Of a DNA stretch of 38,738 bases, positions 330 to 38,608 are shown in pieces. The number at the start of each line of letters is the position of its first letter. Position 1 is the first letter of the stretch. The notes under the pieces are model-generated. The model was not told the origin of the DNA and did not search any database. It was given only the letters and a program-made list of their open reading frames with translations. Source of the DNA: a virus; the IMG/VR virus record IMGVR_UViG_3300048091_000302, positions 1 through 38,738 of that record; one strand, 5' to 3'. A program made the position numbers and the translations under genes.

Positions 330-1676
330 ATGGAGAGTGCAGTGATGGGAGAGTTCACACTTGATCGTTTTGGTCGGGACACATCGCATTTGCGTGATTC
401 CACCGGACTTAAACCTGTGGAGTTTGCGACGGATTGCATTGCTGCTGTCGAAGATCTTTTTGGTAGGGCTTGGTTAGAGGGAGCGGATGGACACCGACTT
501 CAAACGCTCTGGAAGCGAAAGGATTGGTTGGCTACCAACGAGCTATTTGGACTTGGAAAAACCATTATAGAGCTGACCAGAATACATAGGAAGTGGCTAG
601 TCACGACAGCTAAAAAAATTAAGTCAAATATTGAAAACTCTCATGGGTTTATTACCGAAATTTTGACTTGTGGATCTATTAGGGCGCGCTCCGGAAAAGT
701 TGCTCCGGCCTCGGGAAATCAAAAAGGTTATGATTTCGTAGTTGATTTCCCAAGTGGCTTCAAGTATTTCATATCAATTAAAAGTCAAACGATGTCTTTG
801 CATGAGACGGAATTTCATCGATTAAGCGATTTGCTAAAGGATGCTTTCGCTGAAAGAGTTCGGAAATTGGGCGTATGTGCTAGATTGGTTTTGTTTTCTG
901 ATTCGTACATCCAGGCAAGTACTTTTGAATACCTGATAGATTTCGTTCGCAATAAACTCAAAAGATACGATTCATACAATTATCAAGGTTGCACGATGAG
1001 GTTTTATGAGCTTGAGCCTTCTCAGGAGACCTTCGCTTCATCGTTCTATTCTCATGCCGTATTGGTTTATTGTCCTCAACATCGTAATGCATTAAAAAAT
1101 GCGAGAGATAAGTTAACTCAAGCAGGCGAAAATTTACGGGCTCAATTGCCATTGGCTGATAATTACTTCCGAATTCTCTGGGTCAGGGTGCACAGCTCCA
1201 CCGAGCTTTCAGTCTTAAAAGAAGCATGCGAATCAATGTTGGAAGAGCATGAGAATGACTATGGATTTGATGGGGTATTCTTTTTTCAGCCATCTGTAAC
1301 TAGGGAAGGTTCTAATAGCGTAATTAATACTTATTTTGTTCCGGTGATGGCTCAGCTACATCAAGGGTTTAATTGCGCAGTCGCAGACCGTAAAGTCGAT
1401 CTCTTAACTGTAGAAATACCGGTGGGGTCGCTATCGCTCAAGCCGTCAGAAATGTATATATTTGGTGATCAAGGAAGAGCAAAAATTCCTGAGGGAACCT
1501 ACGTATATCAAAAAGCAGATCTTTATCATTTGTTGAAGCGGGAGGGTGACGCGTTGGTAGGTACTTTTTCTTCACCCGCTTCTGGTGTTCATCATCATCT
1601 TGTTCATAAGCATGAGATGGGTGAGGCTCTGTTTAGTGCCCTTCAAGTAGATGTGGATGAAACTCTAATTATTTGA
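330..1676 (+). CDS. Cargo protein of unknown function, possible PD-(D/E)XK-like fold
   Basis: This 448-aa protein lies between attL and the convergent integrase gene, in sequence visibly richer in A and T than the phage core genes. I do not recognise the family. A segment around residues 108-153 (E110 in a helix, D135 and D139 in a strand, then the strand FISIKS with K151) resembles the E/D/xxK layout of PD-(D/E)XK nucleases. The usual acidic residue two before the lysine is Ser, so this is only a weak suggestion. A start at 345 (M6) is also possible, because GGAG at 332-335 precedes it. There is no signal peptide or membrane segment. The end-of-prophage position is typical for accessory or defence cargo, but no function is shown. 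Confidence 0.8.
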   Translation: MESAVMGEFTLDRFGRDTSHLRDSTGLKPVEFATDCIAAVEDLFGRAWLEGADGHRLQTLWKRKDWLATNELFGLGKTIIELTRIHRKWLVTTAKKIKSNIENSHGFITEILTCGSIRARSGKVAPASGNQKGYDFVVDFPSGFKYFISIKSQTMSLHETEFHRLSDLLKDAFAERVRKLGVCARLVLFSDSYIQASTFEYLIDFVRNKLKRYDSYNYQGCTMRFYELEPSQETFASSFYSHAVLVYCPQHRNALKNARDKLTQAGENLRAQLPLADNYFRILWVRVHSSTELSVLKEACESMLEEHENDYGFDGVFFFQPSVTREGSNSVINTYFVPVMAQLHQGFNCAVADRKVDLLTVEIPVGSLSLKPSEMYIFGDQGRAKIPEGTYVYQKADLYHLLKREGDALVGTFSSPASGVHHHLVHKHEMGEALFSALQVDVDETLII

Positions 1677-1833: not shown

Positions 1834-3000
1834 TTACAGTTTTAGCGCAATCTCCAAAATTCCAATCACATCCGGCCCATCTTCATTAATCCAAGTCCCA
1901 TAATGCTGCCGGATCATATTCCCATTCGTATGCCCCATCTGCTCCGCAATCCAGTCAATCGAAGCCACCCCCGTCGTCAGTAACTGACTGGCATACGTAT
2001 GCCGACACTGCCCCGGCCCTCGGTACCGAACCCCAGCCGCATTCAAATGCGTCTTAAAAAACCGATCCCTGACCACAAAATCACTCACATGCGGCAATCC
2101 GCTTTTGCTGTTCAAAAAAACGAAGCGCAGCGTGTGCTTGCGAACCGTCTTGTTATCTCGCTCAACAATCTCGACCGTCTCGGTTCTTTTCACTTTGTTG
2201 ATCGCATCGATCCTGCGCAACGCATCCCAAGCCGGTGCCAACAGCCTAACCCTCCGCGTCGACCGCCTAGTCTTCGTCACCCGATAAGCCCCCCGCACCT
2301 TCGATCGGCGAAACGTCACCGTCCCTTGCTCCAGATCTACATCCTCCCAAGCCAGCGCGATCGTTTCTGAAACCCGCGGTCCCGCCCAAATCATGAACTG
2401 CACCATCAATACCTCTTGAGTGCGTGACGTTGGCGTTTCCAGGATCTGCTTGATCTCCGCTCGGGTGAACGGATCCGGCGCCTCAGGATCCGGCAGGCGC
2501 ACGAACAGTCCCTCCGTAGGATCATGCGCGACCTTTTTCCGGGTGCGATACAGCCGAAACACCTGCCGCACATTGCAGATGATGTCGCGAATGGTCTTGT
2601 TCTTGAGTCGTTTCGAAAGCGAGTCCTGTACCCACTCCTGCAGGTCCAGATGATCGATTTGGTCGATCTGAACCTTCCCCCAGCGCGGCCGCACATGCAC
2701 CTCGGCCTTGTTGGAGTAACCTCGGTAAGACGTTGCGGCAACGCTGTTGCTTTTGATCTTTAGCCACAGATTCAGGTAATGGCCGAAAGTGTTTTCAACC
2801 AGCTTGCCTGAGTCGGGAAAGTGCCGGCTGTAATCGAATGTTCCAGCCTGAATCTCGTATTCGATTATGTTCACCAGGCGGGCTGCATGCTCCCGGTTGG
2901 CCGCTGTGTTGCCTCCCGGGATGCGCTCCCGGCAAAGCTCGCCATTGAAACGAAAGTAGACCCGCACGGAATTCCCGCGGGCCTCTACGCCATCTGCCAT
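1834..3000 (-). CDS. int: Tyrosine recombinase integrase
   Basis: This tyrosine-family integrase recombines attP with the tRNA-Ser attB. The start at 3000 (MADGVEARGN) is chosen because AGGAGGT lies 5 nt upstream; longer versions lack a site. An N-terminal arm-binding region (YFRFNGELCRERI) comes first, then the core-binding domain, then the catalytic domain. That domain shows GPRVSE (first Arg), GPGQCRHTYAS (second Arg) and MGHTNGNMIRQHYG (His and nucleophilic Tyr). The usual His of the HxxR box is absent, the tetrad reading GQCR. Many phage integrases of this type vary there, so I expect activity. It is the last gene of the leftward early operon and the closest to attL apart from one cargo gene. 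Confidence 0.95.
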   Translation of the reverse strand: MADGVEARGNSVRVYFRFNGELCRERIPGGNTAANREHAARLVNIIEYEIQAGTFDYSRHFPDSGKLVENTFGHYLNLWLKIKSNSVAATSYRGYSNKAEVHVRPRWGKVQIDQIDHLDLQEWVQDSLSKRLKNKTIRDIICNVRQVFRLYRTRKKVAHDPTEGLFVRLPDPEAPDPFTRAEIKQILETPTSRTQEVLMVQFMIWAGPRVSETIALAWEDVDLEQGTVTFRRSKVRGAYRVTKTRRSTRRVRLLAPAWDALRRIDAINKVKRTETVEIVERDNKTVRKHTLRFVFLNSKSGLPHVSDFVVRDRFFKTHLNAAGVRYRGPGQCRHTYASQLLTTGVASIDWIAEQMGHTNGNMIRQHYGTWINEDGPDVIGILEIALKL

Positions 3001-3029
3001 ATGCACCTCCTGTGCTGTGTGTGCTGATC

Positions 3030-3239
3030 TCAGTCCTGACGCAACAACCAAAACACCCCAGCACTCCGTCTCCGAGTCGAGGGCTTTCCTGTCCGGGCCT
3101 CCTCAACTCGACGCTGTGCCGCCGCCAACTGCCGCGCCTTGCTACACCGCTGATGGTCACCATGCGCCCGTGACTTTCCGCACTGATCACAAATACCGTT
3201 CAAATCCAGACTCCAGGGGAACGCTTTTCTCCTCTTCAT
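3030..3239 (-). CDS. Small Cys/His-rich (zinc-finger-like) protein
   Basis: A 69-aa basic protein with CDQCGKSRAHGDHQRC near residues 17-32. This C-X2-C...H...C pattern suggests a small zinc-binding module. GGGAGG/GGAG sits directly upstream of the ATG at the expected distance. It ends 29 nt before int and follows another small gene, so the three are probably cotranscribed. Similar short proteins occur next to integrases in Pseudomonas prophages as I recall them, but no function is known to me. An excisionase-like or regulatory role is possible and unproven. Confidence 0.75.
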   Translation of the reverse strand: MKRRKAFPWSLDLNGICDQCGKSRAHGDHQRCSKARQLAAAQRRVEEARTGKPSTRRRSAGVFWLLRQD

Positions 3240-3397: not shown

Positions 3398-6121
3398 TTA
3401 GGCACGCTGAAAAATCCAGCAGCGCACCGTTGTGGTTTTTTTGGGTATCCCATGGCAGGCGGCTTGCGCAGCACGCACCGCGCTGTAGATCGCCTTATTG
3501 GTCTCCACCCACTTGCGGCTGCGGCTATTCACCAACAGCCCGCGCAATGTCTTGAGGTCGCCCAGGTTCTGTCGATGCACGCTGGCCATTTCGGCGAACT
3601 CGTTGAGATTGATGGCGATCAGTTTCGGGTCGATGCTGTGATTGACCTGCGGGCCTTCGCCAATACTTTCGAGGTATTCGAAAACCTCCCAAAACTCGGC
3701 AACCAGCGGGTGGTCAGCGCTGATCGCGGCTTGTCGCTCCAGCGCCATGCATATCAGCGCTTGTTGTGTTGTGGCTACTTGGTTGTCGTCGAGCGCGCAC
3801 ACCAAACGCAGACAATCCACCAGAGCCATCAACTGGCTGTGGTTCTTGATAATCCGTTCAACGCGAATATCTTTGAGTTCGCGTAACTGCCGCTCATGAA
3901 CAAGCACGCGCTCGGCGAACCGAGTCATCACCTGCGTTTCAGCGCGTACGGCCAGCAGCAAAAAATGACTCAACTGCTCAACCGGGATCAGATTCAAATT
4001 GTCAGCGGCCGCACGACTCTCAGTCGTGACCTCCGGCCGCGCAAAGTGCGATTTGATGATCCGCGTGAGGATGGCTTCGGAAGCGCTGACATCGGCGTTC
4101 TGACTGATCGCAATCGCACCGCGAAACGGCGGCTCGTAAGTCTCGTTCCCGCTGGTTTTCATGCCCTTGGTGCCGAGCGTGCCGCCGCCGTAATAGTCCT
4201 TCAGCTCGTCCCAGTCGAAGCCTTTGGCGTGCGCTTTGTCTGGTTCATTCCGGTCACCTTCGATCAGCACCACCGGCATATTGGAAACTTGCCCCATCGC
4301 CCGCTGACGTCCGGCCCGGGTCGATTTCGACGGATCAAAACCCTCATGCTCGCGGCCGAGAAGCTTCCACAAAAAAGTCAGTAATGTGGTCTTGCCGGCG
4401 CCGGCCTCACCGGTGACTTCAAGGAACGGAAACGACTTGTACTTCGCTCGGATCTGCTCGGCGAAGAGCGAGCCAAACCAGAAGGCGAGGGCGACAATGC
4501 CCTTGGCACCAAAGCACAGCCACAACATCGGCAGCCAGTCAGTACGGTACTGCTTCCCGTCGCGCTGAATGTGCATGGTGATCGACTTCTGGAGTGTCTT
4601 GAGTCGCAGCTTGCCGAATTCGAAAAAGTCTTCCTTGTTCACCAGGCTGACGATGCCGCCCCGTACTGCGAGATCGCCGAACACGTAGCAACTGTGCTGC
4701 TTGCTGTAACCGATGAAATCCACCGTCTCAACGGTCTTCAAGCCGAACAGCTGATCCTTCATGATCTTGTCGAGCTGCTTACTACTGCCGGTAAACACCG
4801 CGCCGGCAGCCATCCCCAACAACCGTTTTTTGAACTCACTGGCGGCGGCGACCTGGCCACCGGTGAAAGTGTTTTTCACACTGCCACTGTCGTGGGGAAA
4901 GTCGACGCGAAAGTAATACCAGGATTCATCGGTGACTTCGTTGCGTTGAAAATACAGGGCCTGCGGGTAACAGTTGGCGATCTCTACGACACCACCACAT
5001 TGCCGCAGGGCTTTTTGCCGGCGCTGGCCTTCGCTGAGAAGCTGGTCTTCGTGAAGGTCGGAAGATTCCAGCGCATGCATCGCCCGGCTGAACTTCTCCA
5101 GGTCCATCTTGAACCAGTACAAACGGCTGTCGAAGCCGAAGTGAAATTCATGGCGCTCGCGCCAGTCATACATCAGCACGCCTTTTTCCGAGGCGCTTTC
5201 CGCTATCAGCAAGGAGCCGTGATAGCGGGCGGTGGCCATGTCTTTTTTGATCTGCTCGGCGCGCTGATTTTCGTCATCTATGAAAGCCCAGCGCTGATGT
5301 AGATCGTTCCAGTCGACCTTGCGGCTGTCCGTCTGGGGGATCTGCGCTGCCTCGCATTCGTAACCCAGGACGCGAGCCTTGCGCACCCAGCGCTTGGTGT
5401 ACTTGTGCGCGCCCGGTTCGTTGTCCAGTGCCCAAACCAGCTTGGGCAACTTGCCGCCGCGCTGGCGCGCCAGCTCCTTCAATGAGTCCTCAGGGAAAAG
5501 GTTTGACGACATCGCGGACACTGCCGCGATGCCGTTATGCACCAGAGCGATCGCGTCGAAAATGCCCTCGACAATCCACAGCTCTTTGACCTCCAGCAGC
5601 TCGATAGAGGGCGGGTACCACCAGACACCACGCGGACTGTCGCCGGGCTTGAAGCGCGCTTTCATCTTGCCGAAGCGATGCGGCCGATCGATCAGGCGCT
5701 CCCAGTAACCTCCCTTTTCCAGCGTGAACCGCACCGTGGCGCTGCCGGCGTTTAATGCCTCAGAGAAATACGTTTCCTGAGAGAACCAGCCCTGAATCAG
5801 TTCAAACCGAAAGCCTCGGGCAAACTCAAGGTAAGCCCGAGCGGTCGCCAAGGGAAATTGCTCAGAGGAGGGCGCACGCTTGCTCCAATCATCGAACAAG
5901 TCTTCGTAGATATCCTTGAGGTGCCACCGCTGCGCGCATTTGCTTTCTCGTCCGCAAATGAGCAGCCAAGGCTCTGAATAGCGCGTGTAGAGTTCCTTTT
6001 TTCCACACGCGGGGCATTTGCCGCCTCGCAGATAATCGGTGCTCAAGCGGCGCTTGAGTCCGTAGTCATCTGCGAGGCGCTGCAATACATCGGCGTGCAA
6101 AGTGCTGGGAAAGGCACTCAC
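3398..6121 (-). CDS. TOPRIM/P-loop replication protein (primase-helicase type)
   Basis: This protein of about 907 aa starts DNA replication of the phage. It opens with a zinc ribbon (C37, C40, C57, C63). A TOPRIM-like segment follows (LWIVEGIFD with E186; WALDNE with D234), typical of DnaG-like primases. Further on is an ATPase with Walker A GEAGAGKT at 572-579 and Walker B VVLIEGD near 618-624. This layout matches phage primase-helicases of Pseudomonas P2/phiCTX relatives and takes the place of P2 gene A. The GTG start at 6121 overlaps the TGA of the upstream gene (GTGA), with AAGG about 8 nt before it; a TTG one codon earlier is less likely. Long antisense open frames across it are shadows. 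Confidence 0.92.
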   Translation of the reverse strand: MSAFPSTLHADVLQRLADDYGLKRRLSTDYLRGGKCPACGKKELYTRYSEPWLLICGRESKCAQRWHLKDIYEDLFDDWSKRAPSSEQFPLATARAYLEFARGFRFELIQGWFSQETYFSEALNAGSATVRFTLEKGGYWERLIDRPHRFGKMKARFKPGDSPRGVWWYPPSIELLEVKELWIVEGIFDAIALVHNGIAAVSAMSSNLFPEDSLKELARQRGGKLPKLVWALDNEPGAHKYTKRWVRKARVLGYECEAAQIPQTDSRKVDWNDLHQRWAFIDDENQRAEQIKKDMATARYHGSLLIAESASEKGVLMYDWRERHEFHFGFDSRLYWFKMDLEKFSRAMHALESSDLHEDQLLSEGQRRQKALRQCGGVVEIANCYPQALYFQRNEVTDESWYYFRVDFPHDSGSVKNTFTGGQVAAASEFKKRLLGMAAGAVFTGSSKQLDKIMKDQLFGLKTVETVDFIGYSKQHSCYVFGDLAVRGGIVSLVNKEDFFEFGKLRLKTLQKSITMHIQRDGKQYRTDWLPMLWLCFGAKGIVALAFWFGSLFAEQIRAKYKSFPFLEVTGEAGAGKTTLLTFLWKLLGREHEGFDPSKSTRAGRQRAMGQVSNMPVVLIEGDRNEPDKAHAKGFDWDELKDYYGGGTLGTKGMKTSGNETYEPPFRGAIAISQNADVSASEAILTRIIKSHFARPEVTTESRAAADNLNLIPVEQLSHFLLLAVRAETQVMTRFAERVLVHERQLRELKDIRVERIIKNHSQLMALVDCLRLVCALDDNQVATTQQALICMALERQAAISADHPLVAEFWEVFEYLESIGEGPQVNHSIDPKLIAINLNEFAEMASVHRQNLGDLKTLRGLLVNSRSRKWVETNKAIYSAVRAAQAACHGIPKKTTTVRCWIFQRA

Positions 6122-6357
6122 CAAGAACGCCTTCTCCAGATTTCTTCAGAGAGCGCAGTGATCAACTGCTGCTTAACTTTCAACGACGGAATGGCTGCCA
6201 GCATTGCGTTGAGCCTGTGTTCGATGGGAATGAGGCTGAATAGCTCTTCGTCCCAGTGCTTTTGATGAAGTGCGGCATACAGATCGCGAATGTCATCCAG
6301 AAGCTTGCACGCTTCGATACGGCTCAGTGTCAGGTTGATGCAGATGGAATCTTCCAT
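6118..6357 (-). CDS. Hypothetical early-operon protein
   Basis: A 79-aa protein starting MEDSICINLTLSRIEAC. The start at 6357 is preferred because GAGG lies 5-6 nt upstream, whereas an in-frame ATG 12 codons earlier has no good site. The sequence is predicted mostly helical, with no membrane segment. Its stop overlaps the start of the replication gene by 4 nt, so translation is probably coupled. Function unknown. Confidence 0.78.
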   Translation of the reverse strand: MEDSICINLTLSRIEACKLLDDIRDLYAALHQKHWDEELFSLIPIEHRLNAMLAAIPSLKVKQQLITALSEEIWRRRSW

Positions 6358-8477: not shown

Positions 8478-8620
8478 CTCCTTGACATAGGGTGCTGCCG
8501 ATTTCGTTACCAAGCGAAATGGGTGGCAGCTGTGCGCAGGTTGGTAAACCGGGAGTCAAGGGAACCGGCACGCCCGAAGGCGTCCCACGCACAGCCGCCA
8601 TAACACACGATTTCGGACTA
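8478..8620 (-). ncRNA. Structured 5' leader RNA of the DUF3077 module
   Basis: Read on the minus strand, a 12-bp stem (8599-8588 with 8536-8525, one G-U pair) encloses a hairpin ACGCC-UUCG-GGCGU with a stable tetraloop. Just downstream, AUUUCG-CUUGGUAA-CGAAAU forms a second hairpin. The element ends at the ribosome site of the 31-aa leader ORF. Comparable structured sequences are familiar to me upstream of small Pseudomonas genes, but I cannot name an Rfam family. It could be a cis-regulatory leader or an independent small RNA. Confidence 0.5.
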
Positions 8621-8644
8621 GAAAGCCTGCAATAGTGAGCGGGG

Positions 8645-8702
8645 CGCTGTTACGCAACTCGTCGGGTTACCAAGCCCGATCGCTGGATGTGCAGCGACGG
8701 TT
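8645..8702 (-). repeat. Degenerate second copy of the CUUGGUAA hairpin element
   Basis: On the minus strand CGCUG-CACAUC-CAGCG is followed by UCGGG-CUUGGUAA-CCCGA. The 8-nt loop is identical to that at 8500-8519, while the stem bases differ but still pair. This suggests a duplicated structured element rather than chance. The 12-mer TTACGCAACTCG beside it (8650-8661) recurs at 8772-8783. I see no supported protein gene between 8471 and 8901. Confidence 0.45.
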
Positions 8703-8901
8703 AGAGAATATTCCGGCGAGTTGAGGATGGGCAAGGCGCTTACCTACTCAAAGCTGAGAAGTCGTGCTTCCTTACGCAACTCGCGGATTTTGCCTACAAC
8801 TTCGACCAGAGTCACTCGATATTCTGATGTTCCTGCCAACAAGCCGCGGACTCACTTGCCTGTGACGCGTAGGCTTTCCATGAGAGATCAGGAGTCATCC
8901 A

Positions 8902-10228: not shown

Positions 10229-10660
10229 ATGAGTGTCACCATCCTTGGCCCGTTGTCGGCGGGCGGCGAAACGCTCCCGCTTTACTCGTTCCGTATACCG
10301 GCGGGTTTTCCGTCCCCAGCCGCCGACCACATCGAAAAGCATATCTCCCTGGACGAGCTGTTCGATATCCGAGCGCCGCACGTCTACCTTGCCAAGATCG
10401 AGGGCGACAGCATGCAAGGCGCGGGAATATTTTGCGGCGATCTGGTCATCGTCAATCGCAGCCTCAATGCCGAACACGGCGATATTGTCATCGCCGGCCT
10501 CAACGCCGAACCCATCTGCAAACGCCTACACCGCCGCGACAACGTCGTCATGCTGCTATCGGCAAACAGCAAATACCCGCCGCGCTACGTAATGGAGGGT
10601 GACGAATTGGTGATTTGGGGTGTAGTGACCTATAGCGTGCGCGACCATGGCAGGTCGTGA
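10229..10660 (+). CDS. umuD: UmuD-like S24 self-cleaving subunit of translesion polymerase
   Basis: A 143-aa protein close in length to E. coli UmuD (139). The cleavage site is A25-G26 in FRIPAGFPSPAAD. The catalytic Ser is S61 in GDSM and the general-base Lys is K98 in ICKRL, both in the expected spacing. RecA filaments should trigger self-cleavage to the active form, which then joins UmuC in an error-prone polymerase. It overlaps umuC by 14 nt, so translation is coupled. It may also be the rulA/prophage-type variant. Confidence 0.94.
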   Translation: MSVTILGPLSAGGETLPLYSFRIPAGFPSPAADHIEKHISLDELFDIRAPHVYLAKIEGDSMQGAGIFCGDLVIVNRSLNAEHGDIVIAGLNAEPICKRLHRRDNVVMLLSANSKYPPRYVMEGDELVIWGVVTYSVRDHGRS

Positions 10661-11927
10661 GCAGGTCTTTGCCCTCATTGACTGCAACAGCTTCTACGCA
10701 AGCTGCGAGCGAGTCTTTCGCCCTGATCTAGCCAAGACCCCCATCGTCGTCCTGAGCAACAACGATGGGTGCGTTATTGCCCGCAGCTATGACGCCAAAC
10801 CCTTCGTGAAAATGGGCGCGCCGTACTTTCAAATCAAAGACGTTTTGCGCCACCAAGGCGTGCAGGTCTTCAGCAGCAACTACGCGCTGTACGGCGACAT
10901 GAGCGAACGCGTGATGACAATCATCGAGTCCATGGTGCCCGCCGTTGAGGTCTACAGCATTGATGAGGCTTTCGCCGATTTGACCGGCATACCCGGGGAT
11001 CTGACTGCATTCGGCAGAACGATTCGCGCAACTGTCTACAAGGGTACGGGCATCCCGGTAGGCGTCGGCATCGCTCCAACAAAAACCCTGGCGAAACTCG
11101 CCAACTACACTGCAAAGCGGCTGCAAGCCCACACTGGCGGCGTGGTGGATATCTGCGATCCCGTGAAAAGGGATTGGGTGCTGCGTAACACCGATGCCGG
11201 TGAAGTCTGGGGCGTCGGGCGCCGGATGAAAGCTCACCTTGAGACCATGAACATCAAAACCGCGATGGATCTGGCCAAGGCTGATCCTTGGACGCTTCGA
11301 CAGAAATTCAGCGTAGTGATCGAGAAAACCGCGCGTGAGCTCTCTGGCACCTCATGCCTGGAACTCACCGAGGCCGAGCCAGCCAAGCAAGAGATCTGCA
11401 GTAGCCGTATGTTCGGCAAACGCCTGACCACCATCGAGCCGATCAAGGAAGCGGTGGCCACCTATGTGGAAAGGGCAGCCGAAAAGCTGCGCGCGCAGAG
11501 TTCACTGTGCAAGAAAATCCGCGTCAGCATCCGCACGGGCATGTTCAACCCCGAGGAAGCGAAGTATGCCAATGGCGCGCTGGTTGAACTGCCATATCCC
11601 ACCAACGACGTGCGTCTGCTGACCAAGGCGGCCGTGGAGGCGGTCAACCGTCTGTTTCGGCCTGGCTTCAAATACAGTAAGGCTGAAGTTTTGCTGATGG
11701 ATCTGCGGCAGCCGGGTGAGTTCACCGATGACCTGTTTGCTCAGTCCCAGCCAGCTGCTGCGGAAAAGGTCATGGGAGTTCTGGATGAGATCAATCAGCG
11801 CTGGGGCAGGGGGACGCTGCGTACTGGAAGCGTGCCTGCGACGCCTGATTGGGGGATGCGTCGAGAGATGATGAGTCAGACGTTTACCACTAGTCTTGAT
11901 CAGCTATGGACTGTGAAGTGCAATTGA
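10647..11927 (+). CDS. umuC: UmuC-like Y-family DNA polymerase
   Basis: The 426-aa length matches UmuC (422 aa in E. coli). It opens with FALIDCNSFYASCERVFRPDL, whose Asp binds metal. The second motif SIDEAFADL carries the remaining acidic residues. The helix-hairpin-helix, little finger and the C-terminal UmuC extension (SARTG-like FTDDLFAQSQP...RWGRGTLRTGS) follow. It carries out translesion synthesis with UmuD'. Carriage by the phage gives the lysogen extra SOS mutagenesis. Confidence 0.95.
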   Translation: MAGREQVFALIDCNSFYASCERVFRPDLAKTPIVVLSNNDGCVIARSYDAKPFVKMGAPYFQIKDVLRHQGVQVFSSNYALYGDMSERVMTIIESMVPAVEVYSIDEAFADLTGIPGDLTAFGRTIRATVYKGTGIPVGVGIAPTKTLAKLANYTAKRLQAHTGGVVDICDPVKRDWVLRNTDAGEVWGVGRRMKAHLETMNIKTAMDLAKADPWTLRQKFSVVIEKTARELSGTSCLELTEAEPAKQEICSSRMFGKRLTTIEPIKEAVATYVERAAEKLRAQSSLCKKIRVSIRTGMFNPEEAKYANGALVELPYPTNDVRLLTKAAVEAVNRLFRPGFKYSKAEVLLMDLRQPGEFTDDLFAQSQPAAAEKVMGVLDEINQRWGRGTLRTGSVPATPDWGMRREMMSQTFTTSLDQLWTVKCN

Positions 11928-12058
11928 CATTCAGGGTTGAGGAGGAAGCTTGTCCGGTAGTGTCTGAGCATTCATCAGGCGGAGTGCTTCACAGTGTCAA
12001 TTCTGTCGATGTTCTCATCACGATCACTTCATGCCTCAACACTGATTGTCAGCGTTTC

Positions 12059-13096
12059 TCAGATGCAAGGTCCGCTGTTAAGCACTGAGCAATATCGAAC
12101 CGGGCACGTCATAGGACTTATGTTTTTTGATGAAATAAAATTGGTATGCGTGTCCTTCAAATAGTGGATGGGGGCTAGTGGCTTTCGTTCCACTATCGGT
12201 GGTTGGATTTTGCACTCTTCAATGGTGAAGGTATAGCCAAGTTCTCTGTCTGGTTTCGCTACGACTGTTTTTTTATCATTAATTAGTGCAATTTTTGTTC
12301 CGGTAATTGAGGTTTTTATATCGCATGCTTCGGGGGGGAGATGAAATGAAGAGAAGACTAGTATCTTTTTTAACTGTGCGTCGGCTGAAGAGGCAAGGGA
12401 TTGTAAAAACCCTAGATATATAATTACGGAGTATGAAAAGCCGAGCGTCAAAATAAGCCCTCTGTAGGAAAGTTTTTTGTTGAAAATTGAGTTTGTAGTG
12501 TAGGAGTTTACATATTTTGGTGTTTTTTTGTTAGATCTTATAAAATTTAATGCAGCATGCGTTGCGATTAATAGATATGTAGGTAGGCTGATGCGCATGA
12601 TTATGTAGAGCCATATGCCAATAACTCCTATGAATGTGAACATTTTCTGGGCCGCCGAAAATTGACCGGCCTCTACATTCGTGTAGCCAGTAATGGCATC
12701 ATCTGCGAGGCTGTTGGCTATCAATGTGATGATAATGGTTAGTATGGCGCCCAGCAGATTGAAAGCTGTGGTGTTTGAAAGGTAAAGTCTATGAATGCGA
12801 TAGTGAATGATAGCAAATATGACAGTGCTGCCGCATATGATCGAATATAGCGAGTAGGCTATCGATTTAGGGAAGGTAAAACCAAGGGTGATTAATAGCG
12901 CTAAAGCTATAAAGATAGCTGTACTGCCAATTAAGAGTAAAGCGATAACATCAAGAGTTGTCCAGCTTTTGAAGCTGTAATTTATGATTATTTGTAATGG
13001 TTTATTAGGTGGTTTTTTTACGGATACCATTTTTTCCAATGCGCAAAATATAAAAAGAGAAGCGAAAAATAAAATTAATACTGAAATTATTGCCAT
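12059..13096 (-). CDS. Multi-pass membrane protein of unknown function (cargo)
   Basis: A 345-aa protein with about six predicted membrane helices (near 2-20, 48-72, 78-97, 109-130, 153-185, 212-233). A soluble C-terminal part of about 110 aa contains four cysteines. The DNA is much richer in A and T than the phage core, which points to recent acquisition. It starts 9 nt after the stop of the partner gene (13106-14200), so the two form an operon. The ribosome site is weak. I recognise no family. Location between umuC and the late genes suggests a lysogenic-conversion or defence module; a role in lysis cannot be excluded but there is no evidence for it. Confidence 0.75.
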   Translation of the reverse strand: MAIISVLILFFASLFIFCALEKMVSVKKPPNKPLQIIINYSFKSWTTLDVIALLLIGSTAIFIALALLITLGFTFPKSIAYSLYSIICGSTVIFAIIHYRIHRLYLSNTTAFNLLGAILTIIITLIANSLADDAITGYTNVEAGQFSAAQKMFTFIGVIGIWLYIIMRISLPTYLLIATHAALNFIRSNKKTPKYVNSYTTNSIFNKKLSYRGLILTLGFSYSVIIYLGFLQSLASSADAQLKKILVFSSFHLPPEACDIKTSITGTKIALINDKKTVVAKPDRELGYTFTIEECKIQPPIVERKPLAPIHYLKDTHTNFISSKNISPMTCPVRYCSVLNSGPCI

Positions 13097-13105
13097 TGTA
13101 TTGGT

Positions 13106-14200
13106 CTACTTCTCAGAGGTTTCTTGTTCGATGGCTTGAGCTTGGGCCTTCCGTTGGGCGGTGACCACTTTATGAATGCTCGGTTGGGCGAGGTTTAATA
13201 TCTCAGAGATCTCTAGATAGTAATAAGGATGGGAGTTGTATTTATCACCCTTGTCAATGGCTAAATATTCTTTTTTATCGAAGAAACTGACGTCGTAACC
13301 TGAAAACTCGCAGAGTACGCGCAGATATGAGCGAATGTATCTATAAGAGCCTATTAGCTCTTTAGTTGTACTGCCGACGCATGTAAAAGTAAGGTTGTTG
13401 GGCGAAGAAAGATTGACGGCGTCATAAATTGTATAATCTTTACTAGCTGATTTTAGCGTCTCATATATGTTTGGTAGTGTTAATAGCCCCGCCAAGGCAT
13501 AGATTTTATTGCATGCATCTGCGTAGTTTAATGCGGCGGTTGTATGTGGGGTTTCCTTTAGGAGCGCAGCGTGAATATGAATTTGAATTGCTGTCAAGTT
13601 TTCAATTGCTGAATCAAATCGAGCAGTATCTACCTTCGGTGTTCCATTTGTCGGGCCTTCATCTTTAAAGAAACGTAAATGCAGTCTAGGATGCGCGTGG
13701 AAGTCACCTTCTATGTCGCCTGGGTATGTAATCTGCTTCAAGGTGCCGAAGTACTCAAACATTGCTTTTCGATGAGCGTAATAGCCATCCATATTGTTTT
13801 TTACATTGGTGGCGGTAATCTGGATAGATGTTTGATGGGTTGCATGTATTCGCGCGACCAGAATTGATAGCGGGATAGAGAGCGAGAGAAGTGCTATTGG
13901 TAAGGTGCTGATTCTCAAAAATTCGGATAGCCCGTCCGAGTTGATCGAGATTGTATACCCTTGCCAAGAAAAGTAACCGAGAGTGAAAAAGTACAAGACC
14001 GGAGCTAAAATGCTTAGCCATAGATAACCTTGCTCTGCTAATCCTCTACTGGCATCAAGAGAAAAGGGAGTCAGTTCTTTATATTGATTATTAAGTCGTT
14101 TTTTTAATGAGTTATATGCTTTGAATGCAATTTTAACTATAAGAATACTGAAGGCAAAGGGCAGAATAATGCAGGCTAGAAGCTTAAAAAATTCGTCCAT
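13106..14200 (-). CDS. Membrane-anchored protein of unknown function (cargo partner)
   Basis: A 364-aa protein with three predicted membrane helices (about 5-27, 58-80, 97-117), then a long cytoplasmic part. Right after the last helix is ARIHATHQT...NNMDGYYAHRKAMFEYF, a motif I have seen in uncharacterised membrane-tethered bacterial proteins but cannot name. It is AT-rich and is the upstream gene of the two-gene operon. The start at 14200 follows AGAG at a suitable distance. Its own promoter is probably in the 154-bp gap before the methyltransferase gene. Function unknown; a phage-exclusion role is an inference from context. Confidence 0.75.
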   Translation of the reverse strand: MDEFFKLLACIILPFAFSILIVKIAFKAYNSLKKRLNNQYKELTPFSLDASRGLAEQGYLWLSILAPVLYFFTLGYFSWQGYTISINSDGLSEFLRISTLPIALLSLSIPLSILVARIHATHQTSIQITATNVKNNMDGYYAHRKAMFEYFGTLKQITYPGDIEGDFHAHPRLHLRFFKDEGPTNGTPKVDTARFDSAIENLTAIQIHIHAALLKETPHTTAALNYADACNKIYALAGLLTLPNIYETLKSASKDYTIYDAVNLSSPNNLTFTCVGSTTKELIGSYRYIRSYLRVLCEFSGYDVSFFDKKEYLAIDKGDKYNSHPYYYLEISEILNLAQPSIHKVVTAQRKAQAQAIEQETSEK

Positions 14201-26658: not shown

Positions 26659-28032
26659 ATGGTGTTGTCGGTGAAAGGGAATTTGACTTTTCGTGGCGGT
26701 GAACCTTCCTGGGCGAATGCTTGTGTGGGTGACAACGGGTCTCCTGATTTTTTTTACTATGCTAAAGGTTATTCTTCTGCGGCTAATTTGCTGATAAGGG
26801 CAGCGCTGAGTGACTACTCTTCGAAGTATCCAGTGGATTTGTTTGTATACCCAATTTGTTTTAATATGCGACATTCAGTTGAATTGCGTCTAAAGGGGGC
26901 GTTCGAAGCGCTTGAGAAAATATCAGAACACAGGCATCCATTGCCTTTCTTTAGTTTAAAAGGATCACACGACATAGGGAGAATTTGGTGTTATATAAAG
27001 CAGGAGTCTATAAGGTTAGATGAGCGCTTTGTTTTTTTTACCTCATTTCTTGATCGCTATATTCTTGATATTGCAGCCGTGGATGCGACAGGGCAAACGT
27101 TTAGGTATCCGAATGACAGTGATAATGTAAAGCATCTCGTTGAGGTCGATACTATAAATGTTGGAGTGCTTTTTAGGCGATTTAATGCTCTGGAGAAGTT
27201 GCTGGATAATTTTGAATCATTTTGTTGTGAGATTGTTTCTGAATATGATTTAAAAACATATACAACAAATCTCTCTAGATCCCAGCTATTTGAAATTGCT
27301 GACTTGATTCCTCCTGAATCGGAATGGGGGTCTCAGCAGTTCAAAGATCTAAAAAATGAGTTGAAGGCTAAGTATGGTATTGGGAGCAAGGAGTTTGGCG
27401 ATGCACTCTGCAAAATAAAAGGTCACTATGGCGCAGCACCTGCGCTGGAGCCCCCACCGTTGAAATTTTTAACGGTAGATGTTCTGTTTTGTTTTTTTGA
27501 TGCGTGGTGCGACCTTAATGATGTTGAATTATTAAGAAATAGGCCGAAAATCGAAACAATTGATTTTTCTGATGATTCCCAAGTGATCAGCGGTTTTGAG
27601 AGAATTCGAGAGCGTGGGTTGAAAGAGGTTGAGGTTTGGCCAGTAATAAAAGAAAAAATTAATATTAACCAAGTTGCTGAGCTAAAGGCGTTATTTGGGT
27701 CGTGTGACTCTCAATATTCGGAGGTTTATGTTCATTGTGTTGAGGTTGAAAAGGAAAAGTTTGCTGCTTGTGCGGATGTTTCAAAAATAATTAAGCATGA
27801 GGTTCTTCGTCTTCTTCGAAATGGTCAGGCGTTTGACTACGTTTTAAAAGTCTTATACCTCATTGGTCATCACAAAATTGCAGAGCTGATAGTCGAACGT
27901 TACAAGGTAGGTGATTGTTTTGAGTGGTTAGATGCCGCTAGGAACAGGCGGCTATTTGTTGAACCCTATCGTAGGGTGTTTAGCCAAACTCTTGATGCAT
28001 TTGTTGATGATCATGAGGCAGGAGTGGAGTAG
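26659..28032 (+). CDS. AT-rich cargo protein of unknown function inserted between S and V
   Basis: A 457-aa protein on the strand opposite to the flanking tail genes, in visibly AT-rich DNA. It has no membrane segment or signal peptide. Around residues 60-85, VYPICFNMRHSVELRLKGAFEALEKI resembles the helical opening of HEPN-like proteins, but I see no R-X4-6-H catalytic motif, so this is only a resemblance. The ATG at 26659 has a weak ribosome site. Placement in the gap between two late operons, with own orientation, is typical of a moron expressed in the lysogen. A defence role is possible and unproven. Confidence 0.78.
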   Translation: MVLSVKGNLTFRGGEPSWANACVGDNGSPDFFYYAKGYSSAANLLIRAALSDYSSKYPVDLFVYPICFNMRHSVELRLKGAFEALEKISEHRHPLPFFSLKGSHDIGRIWCYIKQESIRLDERFVFFTSFLDRYILDIAAVDATGQTFRYPNDSDNVKHLVEVDTINVGVLFRRFNALEKLLDNFESFCCEIVSEYDLKTYTTNLSRSQLFEIADLIPPESEWGSQQFKDLKNELKAKYGIGSKEFGDALCKIKGHYGAAPALEPPPLKFLTVDVLFCFFDAWCDLNDVELLRNRPKIETIDFSDDSQVISGFERIRERGLKEVEVWPVIKEKININQVAELKALFGSCDSQYSEVYVHCVEVEKEKFAACADVSKIIKHEVLRLLRNGQAFDYVLKVLYLIGHHKIAELIVERYKVGDCFEWLDAARNRRLFVEPYRRVFSQTLDAFVDDHEAGVE

Positions 28033-35318: not shown

Positions 35319-35423
35319 GCACGGTTCGCTAAAAAAACGTTGAAAGCGAAAAGTGCGAATGATTTGGAGGTGTTTGAATATTTATGGCTTAATGTTTTTC
35401 TCAGCAAGGAGATGTTGGAACTC

Positions 35424-36263
35424 ATGATTTACGAAAAGAAAAAGGTAAGTAGCGGAAGGTTTTTATACTTGGTGGTGCTCCCGGTATGCTTTTTGGTTGG
35501 TGAGTTGATTTACTTGTATGCAAATTTTTCAAGCGACTTTTGGAATGTCAAGTTTGTTGATGTGGCAAATATTATTGCTCAGTTCGCCACCGCTGGTGCG
35601 TTTTATTTAGGATTTCATCAGTATCATCGAACTAAAAAAGTTGAACGTCAGGCTGCTATCATATCTGAATGTAATAGCTTAATAATGAAGATGGCAGCTG
35701 TAAGCAAGGAGTTCGATGTTGGGGAGAAAACCAATTTTCCCAACGTTAAGCGTTCTTGTATAAAGCTTGGCAATCTTGCATCTGATTTTGACGTGTTGTT
35801 TACTGCTTTAAATGAGGGGGTGCAGAAGGCGATAGTTAGGATGCATTGGCAAGAAATGTATTTCAATGAGCTACAGCATGTAATGCAGAGCCTCGAACTG
35901 AGCGCAGCTCTTAGTATTTCTGGTGAGAATCGACCTCGTTATCATGTTGCATTAGCTTACGCGAATGAGAAGGCTAAAGATGGAGGTGTTTCTGATGAAT
36001 TAAAGAGGTATTTCATTTTTAGAGAGGTCTTGAGTAGTTATATTAAGGCCGAGATTGTTGATTTTAAGTTTGAGTTCTCGGATCTATATATGTTCTTCTT
36101 GTTCTTCTTTGAAAGTGATTTTACTAATGAATATATGTACGGAAGTTTGTCTCGCTTGGATGCTAGAGTGAAATCGCCATTAATTGCTGCAATCAAAGAC
36201 TCTTTCGGTGTCGATATGGAGGCGCCCTCCAAAGAGGTTGGAGGCAGAGTGCGTTACAATTGA
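35424..36263 (+). CDS. Two-TM protein of unknown function (cargo between portal and cos)
   Basis: From the ATG at 35424 the protein is 279 aa. The open frame extends to a TTG at 35340 without a ribosome site, whereas AAGGAG (35406-35411) stands 12 nt before 35424. There are two predicted membrane helices near the N-terminus (LYLVVLPVCFLVGELIYLYA and VANIIAQFATAGAFYLGFHQ). A cytoplasmic helical part with HRTKKVERQAAIISECNS follows. AT-rich, unlike Q. No family recognised. It is read with Q and ends at a hairpin shared with the convergent KAP gene; the pair may act together. Confidence 0.72.
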   Translation: MIYEKKKVSSGRFLYLVVLPVCFLVGELIYLYANFSSDFWNVKFVDVANIIAQFATAGAFYLGFHQYHRTKKVERQAAIISECNSLIMKMAAVSKEFDVGEKTNFPNVKRSCIKLGNLASDFDVLFTALNEGVQKAIVRMHWQEMYFNELQHVMQSLELSAALSISGENRPRYHVALAYANEKAKDGGVSDELKRYFIFREVLSSYIKAEIVDFKFEFSDLYMFFLFFFESDFTNEYMYGSLSRLDARVKSPLIAAIKDSFGVDMEAPSKEVGGRVRYN

Positions 36264-36295: not shown

Positions 36296-36350
36296 GGTCG
36301 GCGATGCGCTCTTAACGAGAGGAGCCGACCAATGGTTGGTTCTTCTTTTT
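36296..36350. terminator. Hairpin terminator between converging cargo genes
   Basis: GGTCGGC (36296-36302) pairs with GCCGACC (36324-36330); CTCT/AGAG extends the stem inside the loop. A T-rich tract reaches 36350, touching the stop of the KAP gene. It would end transcription of the two-TM gene. Confidence 0.68.
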
Positions 36351-37662
36351 AGCCAGCTGAAAAACTATTAAGTTTTTGAGTCATTATTCCTAATATTTTC
36401 CCCCTTTCTGGATAGTATCTAGCCATCCCCTTTATTTCGTGACCATGATCGAGGTTTTTGAATTCATCCTCGCTCATAACGCACATCTCTAACCATTTCA
36501 TCACGTACTCCATCACATAATTATCGCTTTTTGGGTCAGGATAATATTTAAAAGCGTCTTGAATGTCCTGAATGCTTACATTCGAGTCGGTCATCCTCAG
36601 GAATATTCCAGGTCGCATAACTTTCAGAACACATATGGCAGACGTTAAGGCGGTATTGATGTCCGCATTAGGTCGTTCCGTCATGAGCATGATGGCAAGA
36701 TTTGAGAAAATTCTTTCGAGTTCTCGTAGAGAACAATTCAATTGCGTTCCTAAGCTCGTAAATAGTTCGACCCAGTCTTTGTCCGTGACTTCATATTGGG
36801 TTGCTAAATAATGGCAGTATTTTTGAATGTTGCTATTGCGTCCTTTCTTTTTTGGTAAGGTCGCCTCGATAGTGATGAATTTTTGTAGATATGTATGTGC
36901 ATTGATATTGGCGCCGTAAGTTGCTTTGATAGACTCTTGGAGCTGTTCTTTGTTGATCACTAATAAGAAGTTAACGTTTTCTACAGAAAATAGATGCTTG
37001 ATTTTCTCCAGCATTTCCACTGCGAATGACGGTCTGCATCGATCAAGTTCATCGATGATAATGGTAAGAGGGCTGTCGGATTTATTAGTTAGTTCTTTTG
37101 GGATCGTTGATAGGACAGTCTTAAAGTGCTCGATGGAGTCTCGCTCTTTTTTATGATTTGTAAGGCGTTCTTTTATGTATTTCTCTGCACTTGTGCTTAT
37201 GTCTTTAGAAATATCTTCCCCGATCTTTCCAAGTTCTTTTAGATCTGATTCCTTAACGATTCCAGCAGATATCGCTCGTATGCTAACCTTCGCGCTCAGC
37301 GATAATATGTGCGCGCCGACATTTTTGGCTTTATCGATGAATTCTTTTGATTTTTTTGGCGGGGCGTTTGCTGAGACGTATTCTGTTATCGCACCGGCGA
37401 CAACCATAAATGCGTCATCTACATAATCTGATTCAAAAGCATCAATATAGATGTTTGGTATATTTTCTTTTTTGAGGATATTTTGCCATGATTTAACGAA
37501 TGTCGACTTGCCTTCGCCCCAGTTTCCATCCAGACCAATAACTAAGGGGGCTTTGGAGTTCTTAACTATATTTGCTAAAGCTATGCCAAAATTTTTCCGT
37601 TCAAATAAGTCTTCGCCGAAATCTTCTTCGGAGATTTGATGTGGCTGAGCGACTAATCTCAA
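36349..37662 (-). CDS. KAP-family P-loop NTPase (cargo, probable defence protein)
   Basis: A 437-aa KAP NTPase. Walker A is GNWGEGKST (46-54). Walker B with the sensor is LTIIIDELDRCRPSFAVEMLEKIKHLF near 195-225, the family signature. No clear membrane hairpin is inserted, unlike many KAP proteins. The start is TTG at 37662 with AAGGG upstream. AT-rich. KAP ATPases occur in several antiphage systems, such as QatA in Qat; no other Qat gene is present here. Together with the two-TM protein it sits between portal and cos, where phiCTX carries its cytotoxin gene. Confidence 0.88.
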   Translation of the reverse strand: MRLVAQPHQISEEDFGEDLFERKNFGIALANIVKNSKAPLVIGLDGNWGEGKSTFVKSWQNILKKENIPNIYIDAFESDYVDDAFMVVAGAITEYVSANAPPKKSKEFIDKAKNVGAHILSLSAKVSIRAISAGIVKESDLKELGKIGEDISKDISTSAEKYIKERLTNHKKERDSIEHFKTVLSTIPKELTNKSDSPLTIIIDELDRCRPSFAVEMLEKIKHLFSVENVNFLLVINKEQLQESIKATYGANINAHTYLQKFITIEATLPKKKGRNSNIQKYCHYLATQYEVTDKDWVELFTSLGTQLNCSLRELERIFSNLAIMLMTERPNADINTALTSAICVLKVMRPGIFLRMTDSNVSIQDIQDAFKYYPDPKSDNYVMEYVMKWLEMCVMSEDEFKNLDHGHEIKGMARYYPERGKILGIMTQKLNSFSAG

Positions 37663-37849: not shown

Positions 37850-37882
37850 GCGCGCCGTCGTCCCCCCACCTCGCCGGCGCGC
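37850..37882. other. cos site (cosN) with flanking dyad
   Basis: On the minus strand 37875-37857 reads GGCGAGGTGGGGGGACGAC. It shares GGCGAGG-N-GGGG with the 19-base cohesive end of P2 as I recall it (GGCGAGGCGGGGAAAGCAC). GCGCGCC (37850-37856) and GGCGCGC (37876-37882) form a perfect 7-bp inverted repeat that encloses exactly these 19 bases. This is the geometry expected for symmetric staggered terminase nicks giving 19-base ends. The position past Q is where P2-type phages keep cos. Confidence 0.75.
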
Positions 37883-38081
37883 TAAATGGGTCTTTTTTTC
37901 CGCACTCCTGCGATCCACTGAGCGCAGCCACGGCTGGGTTTTGTGATGGTCAATGAATGACACAAAAAGCCTGCGAATCCCTGCGAAGGGTCGGGCACCC
38001 GATGCGTCTTACCAAGGTCGTTTGTTCGTCAGACATGAGGCATCGTCAGGCGCTGATTTTCAGGAGCGGGGTCAGAAAAAA

Positions 38082-38278
38082 GTAATGTGGTAATTCGGAT
38101 ATCGGTATACCGCTGAAAGCCCCGTATTCACTGGCTTTGCTGAATTACTTCAGAAAGTAATTTTGAGTAATGAAAAAGGTAATGTGATCGTAAGTGGTTG
38201 ATTTATAAGGGGTGGATAAATGAAGAAATTACTTCCTTAAAAGGTAATTACCTTACCTCTACATTACTTAAAAATTAC
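38082..38278. repeat. Cluster of 11 ARGTAATK repeats in both orientations
   Basis: GTAAT occurs at 38082, 38090, 38157, 38167, 38179 and 38244. ATTAC occurs at 38144, 38228, 38247, 38263 and 38274. Aligned in one direction, almost all extend to A-A/G-GTAAT-T/G. Fewer than one would be expected by chance in 197 bp. The cluster lies 206-412 bp from the cos centre and 240-440 bp from the attR core. It could be a terminase (cosB) array, integrase arm sites or replication iterons; the sequence does not decide. Confidence 0.7.
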
Positions 38279-38377
38279 CTTGTGCCGGTCCCTTGCAGTC
38301 CAGTTAAATCAAGGCTCTCAGGCCGATCAGTTGAATAAGTTACCTAAATCACCTGTTTCCGATGCCTTCCCGAAAAA

Positions 38378-38518: not shown

Positions 38519-38608
38519 TTCGAATCTCTCCTTCACCGCCACATTCAGTAAACGCAAACCCCTGATTTTCCTAGAGAAAGTCGGGGGTTTGTGGTTTTTG
38601 GTGTCTGG
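38519..38608. repeat. attR, right 90-bp direct repeat
   Basis: Copy of 104-193 with two mismatches (38542 and 38602). It holds the tRNA T arm and 3' end without the rest of a tRNA, followed by the terminator hairpin (38556-38597). The sequence after 38608 should be chromosomal. Confidence 0.93.

Follow-up and report, generated by a model that had tools for sequence, protein, structure and literature searches.

A 13-slot iteron array as the proposed replication origin of P2-type phages that encode a Toprim primase-helicase and no gene A

We propose that a 274-bp intergenic array of short repeats, carried by a phiCTX-like prophage of P2 type, is highly likely to be the iteron replication origin of its phage, or else the single cis-acting replication region that contains it. 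Three findings are brought together here: an initiator, Rep, whose AlphaFold2 (AF2) model has the helicase fold of SaPIBov1 Rep and Cch; one AT-rich array of short repeats per replicon (13 slots in 274 bp, and a single cluster of its word in 9 of the 10 genomes checked); and a repeat ‘word’ that is, by correlation only, specific to the cognate Rep. We infer from these that Rep binds the array and that the array has origin activity.

The window, by which we mean the whole 38,738-nt stretch of DNA analysed, is the IMG/VR virus record IMGVR_UViG_3300048091_000302, and its prophage (Peduoviridae; the phiCTX genus is Citexvirus) has a P2-like capsid, terminase and portal. It is integrated in a tRNA-Ser (gga) gene at 37-126, with attL (104-186) at the 3′ end of that gene and a matching plus-strand copy, attR, at 38519-38601, whilst a cos-like core, CGTCGTCCCCCCACCTCGCC, lies on the minus strand at approximately 37856-37875, as read from the sequence and in comparison with the annotated cosR of phiCTX record D13409. 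The repeats fall between cos and attR, just as the original prediction had placed them.

Their clustering is far from random. Exact copies of the 8-mer ARGTAATK number 12 in the window against 2.7 expected, a count reached in 0 of 100 shuffles, and nine of them (four forward, five reverse) fall within 38080-38280. The original prediction had counted eleven such copies, six forward and five reverse; a dense, non-random cluster is indeed present, but nine of its members are exact and the other two are RGTAAT cores; the six-plus-five division belongs to this 6-mer core (forward at 38081, 38089, 38156, 38166, 38178 and 38243; reverse at 38144, 38228, 38247, 38263 and 38274). The claim of a density far above chance is borne out, as the best 274-bp stretch of the window holds 11 copies of RGTAAT against a maximum of 4 across 300 shuffled windows, and shuffles of the array's own sequence give at most 4. 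The limits first assigned to the cluster, 38082-38278, proved too short: register alignment with 19 relatives sets the unit at 38080-38353 and adds two degenerate copies that had been missed.

Read on the minus strand, with slot 0 at 38353, the array has slots that start, counting from the first copy, at 0>, 9>, 74>, 85>, 96>, 105<, 120>, 171<, 183<, 193<, 205>, 259< and 268<. All 13 are filled in the window, and 11 of 12 copies fit the register, a result matched by none of 2000 random placements. The geometry is one of two outer pairs, 9 bp apart and facing inward, with two inner blocks. One outer pair (slots 268 and 259; 38081-38094, plus strand) consists of AGTAAT at 38081-38086 and GGTAAT at 38089-38094; the other (slots 9 and 0; 38339-38353, minus strand) is degenerate, consists of GGTAAC at 38339-38344 and GGTGAT at 38348-38353, and was recognised from the alignment with relatives. 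The inner blocks are of mixed orientation, the first (slots 205, 193, 183 and 171; 38144-38183) having one reverse and three forward RGTAAT copies, and the second (slots 120, 105, 96, 85 and 74; 38228-38279) including GGTAAG at 38252-38257. Between them, at 38184-38227, lies an AT-rich spacer with a minus-strand box, CCCTTATAAATCAACCACTTACG, that is kept in most relatives; it matches the phiCTX/Dobby box at 19 of 23 positions and is supported by the alignment too, and a box like CCCTTATAAATCAAnnACTTACA, read on the same strand of the window, recurs in the AT-rich spacers of most members. We regard this spacer as a candidate unwinding element. The array as a whole has a GC content of 39%, against 54% for the genome. 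Cumulative GC skew does not single it out, and does not single out the known P2 ori either.

The original prediction had called for a search of relatives, and the cluster is conserved among them: phiCTX, Dobby, Sirocco, Smp131 and Halomonas phage 4908 all have the same register in the cos-att interval. At this location GGTAAT occupies 12 of the 13 slots in Dobby, Sirocco, OQ658368, D14A and phiCTX, the phiCTX copy (D13409) lying between the attP core and cosR in a deposited record that annotates no repeats or origin there; the word is GGTAAC in Smp131 and GGTAAC/GGTAAT in Halomonas phage 4908, and many further carriers occur among the IMG/VR relatives. Other words, including TGTCAG, ATCACA/CATCAC, CGTCAC, GGTTAC and GTAAGT, occupy the same 13-slot register. 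It is fitted by 9 of 10 TGTCAG copies in PfPro and 7 of 7 GCGATA copies in L183 (random placements, 0% in both), and by 6 of 7 copies of ATCACA in ESSI2 (0.4%), of ATCACA in L110 (0.15%) and of GTAACT in phage 2F_1 (0.1%), giving randomisation P ≤ 0.004 for the words TGTCAG, GCGATA, ATCACA and GTAACT. A scan that ignores the word altogether finds 6-12 of the 13 slots in the window (score 6) and in about 40 Rep-bearing records, and finds no match in 69 Markov shuffles or in P2, 186, HP1 and P4. In nearly every complete Rep-bearing phage examined, the strongest short-repeat cluster is such an array. Judged from these alignments, the slots resemble binding sites arranged on an unvarying scaffold, whose word has been rewritten in concert.

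Two arrays mix words within one register, namely L253 at 8587-8860 (GTAAGT and TGTCAG) and L183 at 11484-11757 (GCGATA and GTAAT), and these are possibly intermediates of word replacement. Two other candidates were set aside, the end repeat of L165 (score 37) being of a different, tandem type, and the register-scan score of 6 in L011 having a shifted offset and no significance. About half of the examined prophage contigs have no array; the one looked at, L228, stops in a cargo gene before cos. Many array-less IMG/VR contigs appear truncated, so that absence says little, and they were not scored as losses. The record of Bacillus phage ZY1 (L009, OR820920.1) starts and ends exactly at ORF borders, and the intergenic region expected to hold its array seems to be missing from it. 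Microcystis phage Mae-JY29 (L017) has, at about 11930-12200, a weaker, mirrored array with the interleaved words ACGGTA and GGAATAT; its neighbours are a cos-like sequence rich in GC and a gene for which the annotation reads only ‘recombinase family protein’. The kinship of this array with the 13-slot array is suggestive only.

Iterons, a terminase array and integrase arm sites were the three readings first offered for the cluster; the iteron origin is now the best supported, and the other two find no support once the words are set against the proteins. The co-variation check, which had been framed around terminase M, Int and the replication protein, points to the last: judged by sequence, array word and layout follow Rep along lineages, and not Int or terminase. 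Groups of words correspond to clades of the Rep tree, one word per clade, with the exception of a neighbouring pair in the ATCACA clade (ATCACA versus CGTCAC). In phi3, its relative L100 and JFK, whose Reps are only about 33% identical to that of the window, the array has a layout of its own, immediately 3′ of rep, with the word GGAACA in phi3 and TGGAAG in JFK. The GCGATA array of L183 was excluded from this comparison because its position, on the far side of int and a host chemoreceptor gene, makes its own Rep uncertain.

The thought that these are arm-type sites of attP, bound by the integrase, draws on the presence of 11-13 short sites near att, the array being about 165 bp from attR, and on the similar words of phiCTX and Halomonas phage 4908, whose Ints are 55-57% identical to that of the window (56% for phiCTX). 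The window gene (1834-3051, minus strand) encodes a tyrosine integrase with an Arm-DNA-bind_2 domain, and yet we do not read it as the partner of the array. The Ints of the window and Dobby have no detectable similarity and share word and register, whereas those of Dobby and PfPro are 70% identical and go with GGTAAT and TGTCAG, respectively; the integrase-arm reading fails because unrelated Ints share the array and Ints that are 70% identical differ in word. A whole rep gene, moreover, separates array from int in phi3 and JFK, and 13 one-sided sites far exceed the annotated arms of P2 (one on each side) and P4 (a handful), all of which leaves this reading extremely improbable.

Q is the gene that borders cos in P2. 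Binding of the array by gpM, the terminase small subunit, so as to steer packaging at the adjacent cos is in keeping with the distance of about 200 bp between array and cos in Citexvirus-like phages, but the array lies well away from Q in PfPro, phi3 and JFK, and cos also occurs in P2, 186 and HP1, where there is no array. This reading fails because the near-identical terminases of phi3 and JFK (M 88% and, over the aligned part, P 100% identical) accompany different words, and because PfPro combines a terminase of phi3 type (63% for M, 72% for P) with the register of the window; we hold it to be very improbable.

Rep itself (3398-6124, minus strand) is a Toprim primase/helicase of 908 aa, PHROG 1139 (DNA primase), and our proposed iteron-binding initiator. 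In its AF2 model (mean pLDDT 86), residues 83-310 form a DnaG-like primase (Toprim) core (e.g. 5guj, Z 14.4, rmsd 3.7), and residues 325-907 match SCCmec Cch (5dgk, Z 24.5, rmsd 5.1, 460 residues aligned) and SaPIBov1 Rep (8tch, Z 22.4); the model thus predicts a Toprim primase fused to an initiator helicase like SaPIBov1 Rep and Cch. When the C-terminal 208 residues were modelled alone, fold matches were weak; residues 103-208 gave several of them, to small domains that include an oriT-DNA-binding protein (5vfx, Z 5.1). In SaPI, Rep binds the iteron origin through its C-terminal domain (PMC7581432). Sliding identity along the phage Reps gave no clear word-specific patch, and no residue-level covariation between word and C-terminal domain was seen.

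Since Rep also marks phage lineage, its correlation with the word could arise if another small, co-inherited DNA-binding protein possibly bound the array. In the annotation tables, Rep is present in every array-bearing phage, and no small protein was recognised that they all have. The same observation weighs against a parS-like partition site or an operator array for another phage protein, such as a repressor or small early protein. A fixed register could serve any cooperative DNA-binding protein, and some relatives have genes with a ParB domain or a partition annotation; however, array-bearing phages integrate, and neither in Dobby nor in the window is the array next to an early promoter or the start of a gene. 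We consider a partition or operator function improbable.

The P2 family serves in textbooks as the model of gene-A rolling-circle replication, and the original prediction had accordingly called an iteron origin unexpected, given that P2 starts replication inside gene A. That objection does not apply, because the prophage has no gpA and encodes a Toprim primase-helicase: no match to the gpA family (PF05840) was found in the record, and P2 gpA has no similarity to the window Rep. P2, 186 and HP1 have the same virion genes, cos and capsid family as the window, but they use the rolling-circle nickase gpA, with its nick site inside gene A, and have no array.

P4 ori/crr and SaPI ori are, by analogy, the best guides to how the array would work. 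The likeness to SaPI rep-ori and SCCmec Cch lies in the initiator helicase fold (Z 22-24), in the multiple short iterons, and in a SaPI ori that sits 3′ of rep (PMC7581432), as does the array of phi3, L100 and JFK. It differs in that the prophage Rep has a DnaG-type Toprim primase fused to the helicase, in that most members have 3-5 kb between rep and the phage array, whose 13-slot register is fixed, and in that the carrier is a full P2-type phage and not a satellite island. With P4, the resemblances are that alpha is a fused primase-helicase whose Toprim motif is similar to that of Rep, that 8-bp type 1 repeats occur in both orientations with outer pairs 9 bp apart, and that an annotated 300-bp crr lies just 3′ of alpha, again as in phi3, L100 and JFK. 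However, alpha has a D5_N/Pox_D5 helicase and Zn_Ribbon_Prim, neither of which Pfam finds in the window Rep; P4 iterons occur at two separate sites (ori and crr) and not in a single cluster; and the P4 repeats fall outside the 13-slot register. Given this register mismatch and the different helicase class of alpha, the phage system is not to be equated simply with a P4 origin.

In P4, ori and crr are distinct and alpha binds to each, and the array might correspond to crr, that is, to a replication enhancer and not the start site. The pairs 9 bp apart and the mixed orientation do resemble crr, but a further cluster of the same word is absent from 9 of the 10 genomes checked, and so no separate iteron ori is seen; we deem this alternative unlikely. 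For the same reason, we favour an array that probably acts as origin and P4-type crr at once, the two roles being inseparable by sequence.

With the array taken as an origin, we suggest that Rep would bind each slot, probably via its C-terminal domain, and that Rep oligomers would form on the two mirror-like half-arrays. The AT-rich spacers might then melt, such that the Rep helicase could be loaded in the manner of SaPI Rep, with the fused DnaG-like primase domain laying primers for the host DNA polymerase. Within the circle formed on excision, the array would adjoin attP and cos, some 3-5 kb past the 3′ end of rep and beyond int.

We favour, with rather less assurance, the broader proposal that this previously unannotated 13-slot origin serves replication in a large clade of P2-type phages, with the word rewritten at nearly all slots along with the initiator. 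If so, a defined double-oligomer loading complex would account for the fixed geometry, and the words would amount to a natural, varied code for origin reading by a self-loading helicase. Phages including phiCTX, Smp131, PfPro and ESSI2 appear to start replication in the manner of P4 and SaPI, unlike P2, from a proposed origin that can be specified down to the base and is unannotated in the deposited records examined. Fixed slots with swapped words provide natural variants for studying how such a helicase recognises and opens DNA, and variants of register and word offer a basis for predicting which phages and satellites use the same replication origin. What appears to be new, on the sequence evidence, is an iteron origin for a primase-helicase initiator in P2-type phages without gene A, having a rigid 13-slot register and swappable words. 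No description of the array, or of an origin at this place, was found in the literature searched, to which the original phiCTX papers are external; for Smp131, the published account places repeats upstream of attP and none in the stretch from attP to orf44, and its accessible passages make no mention of the array.

Several further features of the prophage were noted. A KAP P-loop NTPase gene (36349-37662, minus strand) lies between the portal gene and cos; its best PADLOC matches are to PDC-S20 candidate defence models, with weaker ones to QatA and PifA, and it looks like cargo at a lysogenic-conversion locus. Neither Pfam nor PADLOC gives a match for a 448-aa ORF (330-1676, plus strand) that lies between attL and int and is probably cargo as well. 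Three large ORFs at 12059-14200 (minus strand), 26659-28032 and 35340-36263 (both plus strand), some of them membrane-associated in appearance, are likewise unmatched in Pfam and PADLOC and sit at module borders, which are typical cargo positions. Genes for a UmuD-like S24 peptidase and a UmuC-like polymerase occupy 10229-11927 (plus strand), and similarly annotated UmuD/UmuC-type genes occur in Halomonas phage 4908 and Bacillus phage ZY1. An Rfam search gave no RNA element at the array, its matches being limited to tRNA, C4 RNA and C4 target elsewhere. The C4 antisense RNA and its a1/b1 target, at 8519-8605 and 8659-8711 (minus strand), score above the Rfam gathering thresholds and adjoin the early region, and constitute a P4/P1-type RNA immunity within a P2-type prophage.
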